Shown here piece after piece: positions 2,763 through 8,731 of a DNA stretch of 64,000 nt (within the stretch, counting starts at the first letter, position 1; every line of letters starts with the position of its first letter). The notes beneath the pieces were generated by a model. That model had not been told where the DNA came from. It saw only the letters and a program-made list of their open reading frames with translations, and did no database searches. The position numbers and the translations under genes were made by a program. The stretch comes from Candidatus Omnitrophota bacterium (GTDB lineage: Bacteria; Hinthialibacterota; Hinthialibacteria; Hinthialibacterales; JAKPRU01), in contig JAKQSI010000118.1 of assembly GCA_029570205.1 (NCBI GenBank), positions 62,001-126,000 of the forward strand, given 5' to 3'.

Positions 2763-2903
2763 TTCCTATGGCAGAGCTTGCCATTCATGCCTGGTATCGG
2801 TGTAGGGCAGGTTCAACCTGTCTGCAGGCCAGCCCGACCGATTGTAAATAATCCGGGTGGCGCCGGCATCTTGCCGGCGATCCTTTCTTATGCAATCCCA
2901 GCC

Positions 2904-2932
2904 TTGACGCGCAACCGAATGTTGGATAAATT
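2904..2932 (+). promoter_or_regulatory. Predicted sigma70-type promoter upstream of the cimA leader
   Basis: TTGACG (2904-2909), 17-nt spacer, TAAATT (2927-2932). Confidence 0.5.
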
Positions 2933-2961
2933 GTTTATATTCGTCATTGAGTAAAAAAACC

Positions 2962-3027
2962 ATGACACACACCATAGAGATCATCGGCATTATTATCGGC
3001 CAGGGCGGCCCTGGTCCGATGCCGTGA
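2962..3027 (+). CDS. Predicted Ile-rich leader peptide MTHTIEIIGIIIGQGGPGPMP
   Basis: Short ORF upstream of cimA; 6 Ile codons within codons 5-12 (ATA GAG ATC ATC GGC ATT ATT ATC); followed by a rho-independent terminator. Confidence 0.65.
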   Translation: MTHTIEIIGIIIGQGGPGPMP

Positions 3028-3050
3028 TGATCTCCGGCACAGGACAGGTA

Positions 3051-3089
3051 AACCGCCCGAAGCGTGCAAAACCTTCGGGCGGTTTTTTT
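3051..3089 (+). terminator. Rho-independent terminator/attenuator in the cimA leader
   Basis: Perfect 12-bp stem AACCGCCCGAAG / CTTCGGGCGGTT with 10-nt loop; run of seven T at 3083-3089. Confidence 0.88.
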
Positions 3090-3146
3090 GTGTCCGGGGA
3101 TGCCACCGGTTCAAGGTGTCCCATAGATCATACGGAGGTCAGTACC

Positions 3147-4727
3147 ATGGGTCAGCGAATTGAAATCTTCGATACAACATTGCGCGATGGAACACAGGGT
3201 GAGGGGGTCAATCTCTCCGCCGAGGACAAGATTCGGATCGCCGTCCGATTGGATGAGTTCGGTGTCGATTTCATTGAGGGGGGCTGGCCCGGCTCCAACC
3301 CGAAAGATGTCGAGTTCTTCCGAAACATCCACAATATCAAACTGAGTCACGCGAAAATCACCGCATTCGGAAGCACGCGACATGCGAAATACCCCGCCGA
3401 CCAGGACCCCAATCTCCTCAAGATGATCGAATCGGGCACGGAAGTCGTGACAATCTTCGGCAAGACTTGGGACCTTCATGTCACCGCCGCCTTGCAGGTG
3501 GATCTCAATACAAACCTGGAGATGATTCGCGATTCCGTGGCGTTTCTCAAGAAGAATGGGCGGATGGTGATCTACGATGCCGAACATTACTTCGACGGCT
3601 GCAAAGGCCATCTCGAATACGCACTCAAAACCATCCGTGCCGCACAAGAGGCAGGCGCAGACCGCATCGTTTTGTGCGATACCAATGGCGGATCGCTTCC
3701 CCATGAAATCGCTCAATACACCCGCGAAGCCGCACAGGTCTGCTCCGTGCCTCTTGGGATTCACTGCCATAACGATTCAGGGCTGGCCGTCGCCAACAGT
3801 CTGATCGCCGTCCAGAACGGTGTTACCCATGTTCAAGGGACAATAAATGGGTATGGCGAGCGATGCGGCAACGCCGATTTGTGCGTAGTGATTCCCAATC
3901 TGGTACTCAAATTGGGTTATGAAGCCGTTCGAGAAGGAGAATTGCCTAATCTGACCGGCCTCTCGCGGTATATCGAGGAGTTGGCCAACCTTCCACGCCG
4001 GGATGACCGCCCGTTTGTCGGCATGTCCGCCTTTGCCCACAAGGGCGGGATTCATGTCAGCGCGGTCCAGCGGGAAAGCCGCACCTATGAGCATATCGAT
4101 CCCAAACTGGTCGGCAACCGGCAGCGCATTCTCGTTTCGGAACTCTCGGGCCGGTCCAATGTCATCCATCAGGCAAAATTGATGGGAATCGATCTCGAAA
4201 AAAGCCGCGAGGGGTCAAGAATTGTCCAACGAATCAAAGAAATGGAGAACCAGGGCTATTTCTTTGAGGCGGCGGACGGCTCGCTGGAACTGCTGATCCG
4301 GCGGGAACTCGGTCAACACCGCAAGTTCTTCGAAACGATCAGTTACCGTGTCATCGTCGAGGACACCGCGGCGGGCAATCTCTGGACAGAGGCCACAGTT
4401 CGGGTGCGGGTCAATGGCGATGTACTCTACGAGGTGTCGGATGGAGACGGCCCGATAAATGCCCTGGATACCGCGCTTCGCAAAGCCCTCACCCACAAGT
4501 ATCCGCAGCTGTCTCAAGTTCGCCTCCATGATTACAAGGTGCGCATCATCAATTCCCAGGCCGGAACCGCCGCCAAAACCAGGGTCCTGATCGAGTCCGG
4601 CGATGGCGAGCGGGATTGGATCACCATCGGGGTCTCCGAAAACATTATCGAGGCTTCCTGGGAAGCCCTCATGGACAGCATCGATTACCGCCTCCTTCTC
4701 GACGAATTAAAATTAAAAGGCTCCTGA
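3147..4727 (+). CDS. cimA: (R)-citramalate synthase
   Basis: MGQRIEIFDTTLRDGTQGEGVNLSAEDKIRIAVRLDEFGVDFIEGGWPGSNPKD...HCHNDSGLAVANSL...VQGTINGYGERCGNADL...; LeuA-like C-terminal allosteric domain; TIGR00977-type citramalate synthase. Confidence 0.92.
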   Translation: MGQRIEIFDTTLRDGTQGEGVNLSAEDKIRIAVRLDEFGVDFIEGGWPGSNPKDVEFFRNIHNIKLSHAKITAFGSTRHAKYPADQDPNLLKMIESGTEVVTIFGKTWDLHVTAALQVDLNTNLEMIRDSVAFLKKNGRMVIYDAEHYFDGCKGHLEYALKTIRAAQEAGADRIVLCDTNGGSLPHEIAQYTREAAQVCSVPLGIHCHNDSGLAVANSLIAVQNGVTHVQGTINGYGERCGNADLCVVIPNLVLKLGYEAVREGELPNLTGLSRYIEELANLPRRDDRPFVGMSAFAHKGGIHVSAVQRESRTYEHIDPKLVGNRQRILVSELSGRSNVIHQAKLMGIDLEKSREGSRIVQRIKEMENQGYFFEAADGSLELLIRRELGQHRKFFETISYRVIVEDTAAGNLWTEATVRVRVNGDVLYEVSDGDGPINALDTALRKALTHKYPQLSQVRLHDYKVRIINSQAGTAAKTRVLIESGDGERDWITIGVSENIIEASWEALMDSIDYRLLLDELKLKGS

Positions 4728-4780: not shown

Positions 4781-4831
4781 ACCGCGTTGACTTACTCTGT
4801 ATTCATCATACAAAAGCCACAGGAGGTTGCC

Positions 4832-7800
4832 ATGAAACAGAACAGGTCTACCGGATCTCCCGCAAGATGGATTCTGCTTTCCCTACTCGCGCCGGCGCTG
4901 CTTCTTCCGTTCAAAGGATATTCTGCCGTGGCTTCGGGCGATCTTGCGAAGTCGCTTGTCCGGACTTCCGGCAAGAATACGGGAATCTGCTCGATCCTTG
5001 GGTGCGATGACGGCAACCTGGCAGTGGAGATGGCCCATGTCGGCAGCTTCCTTGTCCACGTGCAGGATCCCCGACAATCGGCAGTGGATACCATCCGAAA
5101 GATTGTCGATGCGGAAGGATTCTATGGAACGCAAGTCGTTGTCGAGAAGGGGGCGCTCAAGCCCCTGCCTTATGCCGACAATATGATCGACCTGGTTCTC
5201 GCGATCAATCTCCGTGATGGCGACCTTAAAGAAATTTACCCGAAGGAGATTCTTCGTGTGCTTTGCCCGGGGGGAACCGCTGTCCTGGGGGGGCCTAAGG
5301 ACAGTCTTTCCGCGAAAGTTCTGAAGAATTGGCTGAAGGAAGCGGGGATTGACAAGTCTTCCAACATCAAAGACGAGGATCGCATTCTGGTTATGATCCA
5401 TAAACCGCCTCTGGAGGGTGTGGATGATTGGAGTCACTGGGAACACAGCCCGGATAATAATCCGGCCTCCACGGATGCGGTGATCAAAGCGCCGTATATG
5501 ACCCAGTGGTTCGGCAAACCCTATTACATTGCCATGCCCGCAATCACCACCGCGGCAGGCGGGCGGGTCTTCATTGCCATGGGCCATATCGCCCACCATC
5601 AACGCGAAGAACTCTGGCTCAACACCCTTCTTGCAGAGAACGGATATAACGGCTCACTTCTCTGGAAACGTAAACTGCCGGATGGATATCTTGCCCACCG
5701 GTCGGCGTTCATTGCCACGGATGACAAGTTCTACCTGATCGATCCCATCGGAACCGGTTGCCTCGTGCTCAATGCACAAACCGGCGAGGAAGTGGACCGC
5801 ATCTCCATCGCAGAAGCCAACGGCGAATGGAAATGGATCGCTCTTCAGGACGGCATTCTCTATGCACTGGCGGGAAAACAGAGAGATCCTGCTGAAACCA
5901 CAATTGTTCGTAGTCCGTATACCAGCTGGAGCTGGGGAGAACTGAGCCGGGGCTATTACGAAAAAAGGGTCCCCTGGGGATTCGGCGAAACCCTGGTGGC
6001 GTACGATACCCGTGGAAAGAAACTGCTGTGGACTCACAAGGAAGAGCAGCCGATAGACTCCCGCGCCATGACCATGGGGGGCGGGCATCTGTTCTTCTAT
6101 GGGCCGGATTCTCGGATCGGATGCCTTGATATCAAGCACGGTGAGGTGGTTTGGATAAACGAAGATCCGAAAATCCGTGCCTTGATCGAAGAAGAAGGTC
6201 GTGGGCTGAGCTCCACACCCGGATTTAAAACCACCTGTATGTGTATCTATACCCCCGATGCTCTGTACTATCAGGGCCAGACCTTGATGAATGTGGTGGC
6301 CGTATCGACTAAAGACGGCTCCCTGATGTGGCACAGAAAGAAAACTTCCAGTAATCCGAATATCCTTTATGCGGACGGCAAACTCCTGGTGGGAATCGGG
6401 CCGGAGGGCAGCACCCTGATGGTCGATCCGCTGACCGGCGAAACCATCAAGGATCTCGGTTTCGCCAAACGCTCTTGTGCCCGACTTACAGCGACCCCGG
6501 ATTCGTTCTTTGTCCGCGGGATGCCGGAAGGACTTACCCGGTATGATCGCAACCTCAAAAAGGTTTTCTACAATGGCGCATTTCGACCGTCCTGCAACGA
6601 TGGCGTGATCGGAGCGAACGGCCTGTTGTATTTGGGGCCGTGGGCTTGCGACTGCAATCTGTCTCTCATGGGTCGTGTAGCCTTATGCTCGGCAGGCGAT
6701 TTTCAGTTTGATGTGAAAGCGACGGAATCGGATCGGCTGGAAGTCGGAAACGGGGACTTGTCCCGTGTGGCCCATTTCGAAATGGACGACAACGACTGGA
6801 GTGTCTATCGTGGGAATAATCACCACAGCGCCTCCACAAAAGTGGCTATTGCCGAACAGGCCAGCAATATCTGGGAGTTTGTGCCGGAGAGGCAGTTCAG
6901 TCCATCCGCCGCGACAGCGGCCGGCGGGCTGCTTTTCCTGGGCGGCGATGACGGTAAAGTGCGTGCCTTGGACGCAACCACGGGCACGATGGCGTGGACG
7001 TTTCTGACCGGCGGTCCCGTAACTCAACCGCCGACTCTTTGGAATGGCCGTGCCTATATCGGTTCCGGAGACGGGTACATCTATGCCCTGGAGGCCGCAA
7101 CCGGCCGGTTATTGTGGCGGTTCCGAGCGGCCCCGGTCGAGCGGCGCATCATGGTTTACGGATCGCTCTGCTCCACTTGGCCGGTCAACAGCGGAATCCT
7201 TGTTGAGGACGGTGTTGTGTATGCCGCAGCGGGTATTATCGACTATGACGGCACATATCTCTATGCGCTGGATGCCGTCACCGGGGAGATCATCTGGCAG
7301 AACCATTCCAGCGGCCATCTGGATAAGGAACTCCGTAAAGGCGTTTCCGCCCAGGGAATACTTACCTCGGCAGGCGCACGGCTCTGGATGCCGGGCGGGA
7401 ATATCATCTCACCCGCTGTCTATGACCTGAAAACCGGCGAGTATCTCGGAAAAGGCCCCGGCAACGGTGCGCCGGATATGAATGCCTGTCGCGGCGAGGA
7501 AATCGGGATTTTCCGCGACAAATTCATCATTCTGGGTGGCAGACTTCGGTACTCCGCCTCGGAGAATGTGGTCGATCCCGGCAGATTTGACGGACACGCT
7601 ATCGGCTCCGGTAAAGACTTCGGACCCGCGTCGCTTGTCGCCAAAGGCAAAATCCCGCCCGCCTGGAACGATCAACGGATGGCTTTTGCGGATGGCCTTT
7701 ATACAAAGATGGCCTGCTGTTCCGCGGACACCCTGGAGCGGTATTTGAGTCAGGGAGACGGGAAAATCCCCCCCGAACCGCTGTGGCGGGCGGTCACTCC

Positions 7801-8731
7801 GAAGGAAGCCGATACCATCGCGATCGTCGTGGCGCCCAATGTCGTGCTTTCCATTTATGATTCCCTCCTTCCGCGTCAATTGGTGACGGTTTCCACAGTC
7901 GCCGCATTCAGCCCGGATGACGGAACTGTGGTTTGGCAGAACCAACTGGCCTCACCTGCCATGCCGGGCGGTTTGCTGGTGGACCGTGACGGACGTGTGA
8001 TTGCCGTACATGAGAACGGCGCGGTGACCTGTATCGCCGGTAATGATGCTCTCAAAGCCTACCTGGACTCGGTTGCCGGGATCGCTCAAAAAGGGGACCA
8101 GGGCCGCGAAAAAGCCATCGCATTGCTTAACGAATCGCTCAAGCAGGTCAATACGTTGGATGGGCGCGATCTGCTCATCGCACGTATGGAGGAACTCGGC
8201 GGTAAACCGGGGGAAGTTGCCGAGGCTAAAGGTTGCATAACACGCTGGAAAATCATCGGTCCTGTGCCATGGGATTATGGCCGCAACAATGTCGACAAGG
8301 TCTTTGTGGATGAACCCGACGTCGATATCACCAAAACCTATACCATCGATGGACAGACTCTGAAATGGAGAAACTACTTCACGGTCCATCCCGATGGGAT
8401 GGTGGACCTCGCGCGTGTCTATGGGATGGATGAGAACCTGGCCGCCTATGCGTATGCGGAAGTGGAACTTCCCAACGACCAGAAGTATTTGTTGAAAATC
8501 GGCAGCAACGATGGATGCAAGGTCTGGTTCAACGGGGAGGAGGTGTTTCGTTTCGATGCCGGAAGAGCATGGGGGTCGGACCAGAACACGATCGATGTGA
8601 TGGGCAAGAAAGGTGTCAACAAAATCCTGATGAAAATCACGCAGATGGGGTCGGCTTGGGCGCTGAGCGCTCGCATTACTTATCCGAACAGCAAACCGGT
8701 TGATCTGACACACGCACAAAGCCGCTTCTAG
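4832..8731 (+). CDS. Exported multidomain protein: N-terminal class I methyltransferase-like domain, PQQ-like beta-propeller repeats, C-terminal beta-rich domain
   Basis: AGGAGG at 4821-4826; signal peptide; MTase-like segment GICSILGCDDGNLAVEMAH...LPYADNMIDLVLAINL...EILRVLCPGGTAVLGG; multiple LxALDAxTGxxxWxF PQQ repeats. Confidence 0.85.
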   Translation: MKQNRSTGSPARWILLSLLAPALLLPFKGYSAVASGDLAKSLVRTSGKNTGICSILGCDDGNLAVEMAHVGSFLVHVQDPRQSAVDTIRKIVDAEGFYGTQVVVEKGALKPLPYADNMIDLVLAINLRDGDLKEIYPKEILRVLCPGGTAVLGGPKDSLSAKVLKNWLKEAGIDKSSNIKDEDRILVMIHKPPLEGVDDWSHWEHSPDNNPASTDAVIKAPYMTQWFGKPYYIAMPAITTAAGGRVFIAMGHIAHHQREELWLNTLLAENGYNGSLLWKRKLPDGYLAHRSAFIATDDKFYLIDPIGTGCLVLNAQTGEEVDRISIAEANGEWKWIALQDGILYALAGKQRDPAETTIVRSPYTSWSWGELSRGYYEKRVPWGFGETLVAYDTRGKKLLWTHKEEQPIDSRAMTMGGGHLFFYGPDSRIGCLDIKHGEVVWINEDPKIRALIEEEGRGLSSTPGFKTTCMCIYTPDALYYQGQTLMNVVAVSTKDGSLMWHRKKTSSNPNILYADGKLLVGIGPEGSTLMVDPLTGETIKDLGFAKRSCARLTATPDSFFVRGMPEGLTRYDRNLKKVFYNGAFRPSCNDGVIGANGLLYLGPWACDCNLSLMGRVALCSAGDFQFDVKATESDRLEVGNGDLSRVAHFEMDDNDWSVYRGNNHHSASTKVAIAEQASNIWEFVPERQFSPSAATAAGGLLFLGGDDGKVRALDATTGTMAWTFLTGGPVTQPPTLWNGRAYIGSGDGYIYALEAATGRLLWRFRAAPVERRIMVYGSLCSTWPVNSGILVEDGVVYAAAGIIDYDGTYLYALDAVTGEIIWQNHSSGHLDKELRKGVSAQGILTSAGARLWMPGGNIISPAVYDLKTGEYLGKGPGNGAPDMNACRGEEIGIFRDKFIILGGRLRYSASENVVDPGRFDGHAIGSGKDFGPASLVAKGKIPPAWNDQRMAFADGLYTKMACCSADTLERYLSQGDGKIPPEPLWRAVTPKEADTIAIVVAPNVVLSIYDSLLPRQLVTVSTVAAFSPDDGTVVWQNQLASPAMPGGLLVDRDGRVIAVHENGAVTCIAGNDALKAYLDSVAGIAQKGDQGREKAIALLNESLKQVNTLDGRDLLIARMEELGGKPGEVAEAKGCITRWKIIGPVPWDYGRNNVDKVFVDEPDVDITKTYTIDGQTLKWRNYFTVHPDGMVDLARVYGMDENLAAYAYAEVELPNDQKYLLKIGSNDGCKVWFNGEEVFRFDAGRAWGSDQNTIDVMGKKGVNKILMKITQMGSAWALSARITYPNSKPVDLTHAQSRF

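Follow-up and report, generated by a model that had tools for sequence, protein, structure and literature searches.

How is cimA, the gene for citramalate synthase, controlled when a short isoleucine-rich open reading frame and an intrinsic terminator stand between its promoter and its start codon? The locus lies near the beginning of the window, by which we mean the whole 64,000-nt stretch of DNA analysed (G000:C120:62001-126000), taken from a 4.39-Mb draft genome (G000) that is 93 % complete. A sequence-only reading had proposed that the isoleucine codons of the short frame operate an attenuator, and conservation of the frame and its promoter, together with RNA folding, now supports that proposal. 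From sequence and modelled folds we consider it highly probable that a ribosome-mediated transcription attenuator ties cimA expression to the availability of charged tRNA-Ile. The response to isoleucine in particular we infer from the six isoleucine codons of the leader and from the place of CimA at the first step of the threonine-independent isoleucine route.

Parts and alternative folds of the cimA leader

Because the preceding gene, folK, is on the opposite strand, cimA needs a promoter of its own. A promoter-like sequence and a 21-codon frame with six isoleucine codons among codons 5 to 12 are present where the sequence-only reading had placed them, and three hairpins can form within and after the frame:

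2904..2932, forward strand: promoter-like TTGACG-N17-TAAATT, kept in a same-genus relative with TAGATT as the -10 element
2962..3027, forward strand: leader peptide frame MTHTIEIIGIIIGQGGPGPMP of 21 codons, ATG 2962-2964, TGA 3025-3027, Ile codons 5, 7, 8, 10, 11 and 12
2977..3034, forward strand: protector hairpin, pairing 2977-2985 with 3026-3034, 2986-2989 with 3020-3023 and 2996-3005 with 3009-3019, from folding
3003..3058, forward strand: antiterminator, pairing 3003-3008 with 3053-3058, 3010-3013 with 3045-3048, 3015-3017 with 3042-3044 and 3020-3024 with 3035-3039, from folding
3050..3089, forward strand: intrinsic terminator with a 13-bp stem (3050-3062 with 3073-3085) and seven T at 3083-3089, from folding
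3134..3138, forward strand: GGAGG ribosome-binding site of cimA
3147..4727, forward strand: cimA, citramalate synthase, the regulated gene (TIGR00977, 750.6 bits, cut-off 450)

No clear Shine-Dalgarno sequence was seen ahead of the leader ATG at 2962. Across both strands and all six frames of the 64 kb, no run of 12 open codons other than the cimA leader contains six or more isoleucines; among 3000 dinucleotide shuffles of the region 2797-3136, 4 reach six.

All three structures are more stable than every one of 200 shuffles: the protector at -34 kcal/mol (2976-3035, z -5.2), the antiterminator at -30.4 kcal/mol (3003-3058, z -3.7) and the terminator with z -5.8. The pairing of GAGATCATC (2977-2985) with 3026-3034 that had been proposed for the leader is confirmed, and so is the complementarity of GGGCGG (3003-3008) to CCGCCC (3053-3058). 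This 6-bp helix turns out to be the lower helix of a more extensive antiterminator, an 18-pair, 56-nt fold to which two further helices contribute (3010-3017 with 3042-3048 and 3020-3024 with 3035-3039). The terminator does carry the seven T described earlier, its stem being 13 bp rather than a perfect 12 bp. Computation yields three mutually exclusive folds, the antiterminator being incompatible with both the protector and the terminator. Pairing of the end of the frame with the terminator arm is weak by itself (-14.1 kcal/mol, z -1.6), and the modelled case for antitermination is carried by the whole 56-nt fold. A simple terminator scan, limited to loops of at most 8, missed the cimA attenuator with its loop of 10.

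In simulations of ribosome stalling, the RNA was masked as far as 12 nt counted from the first nucleotide of the A-site codon and folded at successive transcript ends. Without a ribosome the protector of the window leader has a probability of 0.99. For a transcript that ends at 3062, placing the ribosome at codon 5, 7, 8, 10 or 11 gives the antiterminator a probability of 0.99-1.0, whereas a ribosome at codon 12 destroys the lower helix of that fold. A ribosome at the stop codon leaves no fold other than the terminator (1.0). These results largely settle the concern that GGGCGG might be hidden by a stalled ribosome: it holds for codon 12 only, and the antiterminator remains for the other five codons. 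As the transcript grows, the antiterminator keeps the advantage until the end reaches 3078; from 3082 the terminator prevails. Since the completed terminator always wins at equilibrium, antitermination must be kinetic. Kinetic trapping of the antiterminator is likewise assumed for known attenuators.

These folds suggest a course of events. Transcription would start at about 2940 and a ribosome would begin the 21-codon leader. When isoleucine is ample, the ribosome would get to the stop codon, cover about 3010-3037 and disrupt both protector and antiterminator, leaving the terminator at 3050-3089 to stop transcription ahead of cimA. When isoleucine is scarce, the ribosome would stall at the isoleucine codons between 5 and 11 and cover the 5′ arm of the protector; 3003-3058 could then form the antiterminator before the 3′ arm of the terminator is made, and the polymerase would continue into cimA. 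If the leader is not translated, the protector should form, with termination as the default.

Conservation, and candidate branched-chain controls in the same order

The arrangement recurs in a same-genus relative (G001) whose CimA is 94 % identical and whose leader, MTHIIEIIGIIIGQGGPGPMP, has seven isoleucines. Compared with the window, the relative shows 2 substitutions in the 66 nt of the leader frame and 3 in the 22 nt that follow it. In the terminator all 3 substitutions fall in the 10-nt loop; the 13-nt 5′ arm and the 17 nt that make up the 3′ arm and T run are unchanged. Substitutions fall outside the paired arms save for one antiterminator pair, changed from G-C to G-U, and one broken protector pair; no antiterminator pair is broken in this comparison of two sequences. 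The promoter keeps its -35 element and the 17-nt length of its spacer, with TAGATT as the -10 element and a diverged spacer sequence. Loss of the isoleucine-rich frame in relatives, or a transcription start downstream of 2962, had been named as arguments against an attenuator; the frame is conserved in this relative, and so is a promoter that lies upstream of it. Simulated stalling on the leader of the relative agrees with that on the window leader in all but one respect: when no ribosome is present and the transcript is at the 3062 stage, the antiterminator has a probability of 0.69 against 0.31 for the protector. The locus accordingly combines an isoleucine-codon-rich frame, an intrinsic terminator, an exclusive antiterminator that stalling favours in folding, and a layout kept in a second species.

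Beyond these two genomes, each with one copy of the leader pattern, none was found in 12 other genomes of the class. A third genome of the genus (G002, a draft in 1270 contigs) gave a weak cimA match and no full cimA, and no isoleucine leader precedes any of six cimA genes from the sister family. As far as can be seen, the element thus appears to be specific to the genus. With the exact leader in only two genomes, covariation statistics are not possible. Downstream of cimA, at about 4820-8731 on the forward strand, is a gene for a protein of about 1300 residues, which from its translation we take to combine a methyltransferase-like domain with a beta-propeller; G001 has a similar gene after cimA.

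The same genome carries other candidate controls of branched-chain synthesis. Upstream of ilvB (G000:C1:104827; L284:1225-1400) is a leader, MNAITLLPNGMVLGVALVVVVATHTPMAVGR, with a terminator, and related Val/Leu leaders precede ilvB in G001, G002 and the sister family (L286, L302, L287-L292), so that a Val/Leu attenuator of ilvB is predicted to be conserved across the order of the window. Its frame segment CGCCCATGGCC pairs with the terminator 5′ arm GGCCGTGGGCG, as CGCCCACAGCTTT does with AAAGCCGTGGGCG in a sister-family example. Across these ilvB leaders the 3′ part of the frame binds the terminator 5′ arm at energies between -14 and -25 kcal/mol, and some of the pairs are compensated. When six sequences are aligned, 90.6 % of cells are paired, a share that does not exceed 53 % in slid registers, and two pairs are changed on both sides; the covariation score was reached by 13 of 500 shuffles, modest support from six sequences. 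As at cimA, the antiterminator strand lies inside the frame between regulatory codons and stop. The two differ in codons, in sequence and in range, order-wide for ilvB and genus-wide for cimA.

Upstream of leuA-like genes, T-boxes (RF00230) were detected in G000 (119.6 bits, L305:633-875) and G001 (117.2 bits, L306:685-927). For threonine deaminase, ilvA, the best match in the 93 % complete G000 draft scored 33.7 bits against a cut-off of 378.75. In this incomplete draft CimA is therefore probably the only route into isoleucine and the sole source of 2-oxobutyrate. If our reading is correct, the threonine-independent isoleucine route would be under a control that responds to charged tRNA-Ile, in a genome where no threonine deaminase can be recognised. 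One pathway in one genome would then use an isoleucine leader at cimA, a Val/Leu leader at ilvB and a T-box at leuA, separate end products controlling separate steps.

Isoleucine leaders at cimA in Planctomycetia and Sumerlaeota

We collected 93 upstream regions of cimA, mostly from the class of Planctomyces record L104 (Planctomycetia; L135-L164, L224-L283), and scored as an isoleucine leader any stop codon preceded by at least 4 isoleucines in 15 codons with a terminator within 75 nt. Such a leader was found in 44 of the 93 regions, in 0 of 93 reverse strands and in 0 of 279 shuffles. Applied to other residues, the same criterion counted 18 regions with Arg, 14 with Val and no more than 5 with any other residue tested, and the mean best isoleucine density is 23 standard deviations above shuffles. 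Intrinsic terminators stand on the coding strand in 75 of the 93 regions, against 8 on the reverse strand.

Many of these loci have, at the leader stop codon or immediately behind it, a strand that pairs with the 5′ arm of the terminator, for example CTTGAGG with CCTCAGG (L163) and GGGGTCG with CGACCCC (L271). The strand CCTGAGG includes the UGA stop of the leader in L227 and L240, as is often so in Planctomycetia with a conserved CCTCAGG terminator. In an alignment, covariation of this antiterminator is not significant against column shuffles; the helix still outscores every slid register. A duplex test independent of register gave -16.0 kcal/mol for a strand with its own arm, -13.2 with foreign dissimilar arms and -9.0 for shuffled strands. 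Where the arms are divergent (L258, L266, L271, L275, L277), the own strand pairs much better than foreign strands. The Planctomycetia set is large enough for genetic tests and includes lineages that are likely to be culturable.

Six Sumerlaeota cimA genes (L165-L170) also have isoleucine leaders, such as MASKIFITPSCIIAIAIIGPSRVQ, in which the isoleucine codons make up the 5′ side of a small hairpin. These leaders are without a U-run terminator and have a C-rich stretch downstream; control there is perhaps Rho-dependent or translational. Recurrent isoleucine-containing matches of the type ISTSEIKISCVI in other phyla were considered as leaders and rejected, being one shared motif just before cimA that we read as the C terminus of a protein encoded upstream, perhaps an ACT-type domain.

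Isoleucine-codon attenuation of cimA may, we are inclined to think, be a widespread and unrecorded class with at least three origins: the genus of the window, with the antiterminator strand inside the frame; Planctomycetia, with that strand at or just after the stop and often a UGA within a CCUGAGG-like strand opposite CCUCAGG; and Sumerlaeota, with a hairpin, no U run and possibly Rho-dependent termination. We lean towards independent origin of the three forms because their sequence and geometry differ.

Other readings and relation to known systems

The terminator might be constitutive and insensitive to isoleucine, with the isoleucine-rich frame incidental, and the sister family does manage without a leader. 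We regard this as unlikely: the isoleucine content is above chance (4/3000 shuffles), the frame is conserved in G001 with a seventh isoleucine codon, analogous leaders precede cimA in 44/93 Planctomycetia regions and in six Sumerlaeota, and the ilvB leader of the same genome is rich in Val/Leu rather than Ile. It is also quite improbable that the terminator answers to another sensor, whether an RNA (T-box or riboswitch) or a protein bound to the 3003-3058 hairpin. The T-box before leuA (RF00230, 119.6 bits) does make a tRNA-sensing RNA available in this genome; at cimA, however, the RF00230 covariance model finds no match, whereas it does at leuA. The cimA leader consists mostly of frame and hairpins and matches nothing in Rfam at gathering level or E ≤ 1, nor any of the known amino-acid leader families at the curated threshold (Rfam 15).

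That the stretch after the short frame might code for an N-terminally extended CimA, starting from GTG 3024 or ATG 3027, is a reading we reject as very improbable. The cimA frame is indeed open from 3024 in the window and also in G001 (an open frame of 589 aa). Yet the stretch contains a terminator, ATG 3027 is ACG in G001, GGAGG precedes 3147, and the 40 residues encoded are far more diverged than CimA, at 94 % identity. Attenuation in response to charged tRNA-Ile remains the reading that we favour.

The enterobacterial ilv, thr, trp and his operons are controlled by ribosome-mediated attenuators. The cimA leader shares with them a frame with regulatory codons, a protector, an antiterminator and a terminator, in that order, and departs from them in its gene, in the enrichment of isoleucine codons only and in its lineage. 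The mechanism of ribosome-mediated attenuation has been modelled (PMC1183508). The three-hairpin model of the Corynebacterium glutamicum ilvBNC attenuator (PMC11857589) is alike in its branched-chain leader and alternative hairpins, but that attenuator governs synthesis of all three branched-chain amino acids rather than an isoleucine-specific entry step. Actinobacterial ilvB leader peptides (PMC1262725) resemble the cimA leader in having runs of Ile, Val and Leu codons near a terminator; there the runs overlap candidate terminator hairpins, whereas the cimA run lies about 50 nt upstream of its terminator.

According to a survey that itself added Firmicutes, the leader-peptide systems demonstrated by 2010 were confined to Proteobacteria and Actinobacteria (PMC2965389). 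Citramalate is absent from two attenuator surveys (PMC2965389, PMC1262725) and cimA from a leader-gene paper (PMC4833913); the part of PMC8632094 that gives uORF motifs together with ilvB and ilvD motifs holds nothing on cimA. No description of a cimA attenuator was found in the open-access literature, and Rfam 15 has no family for the cimA leader. Thus the principle of attenuation is known, and the gene cimA and the lineages appear to be new. If the proposed control is real, it extends classical leader-peptide attenuation to bacterial groups for which we found no report of it.
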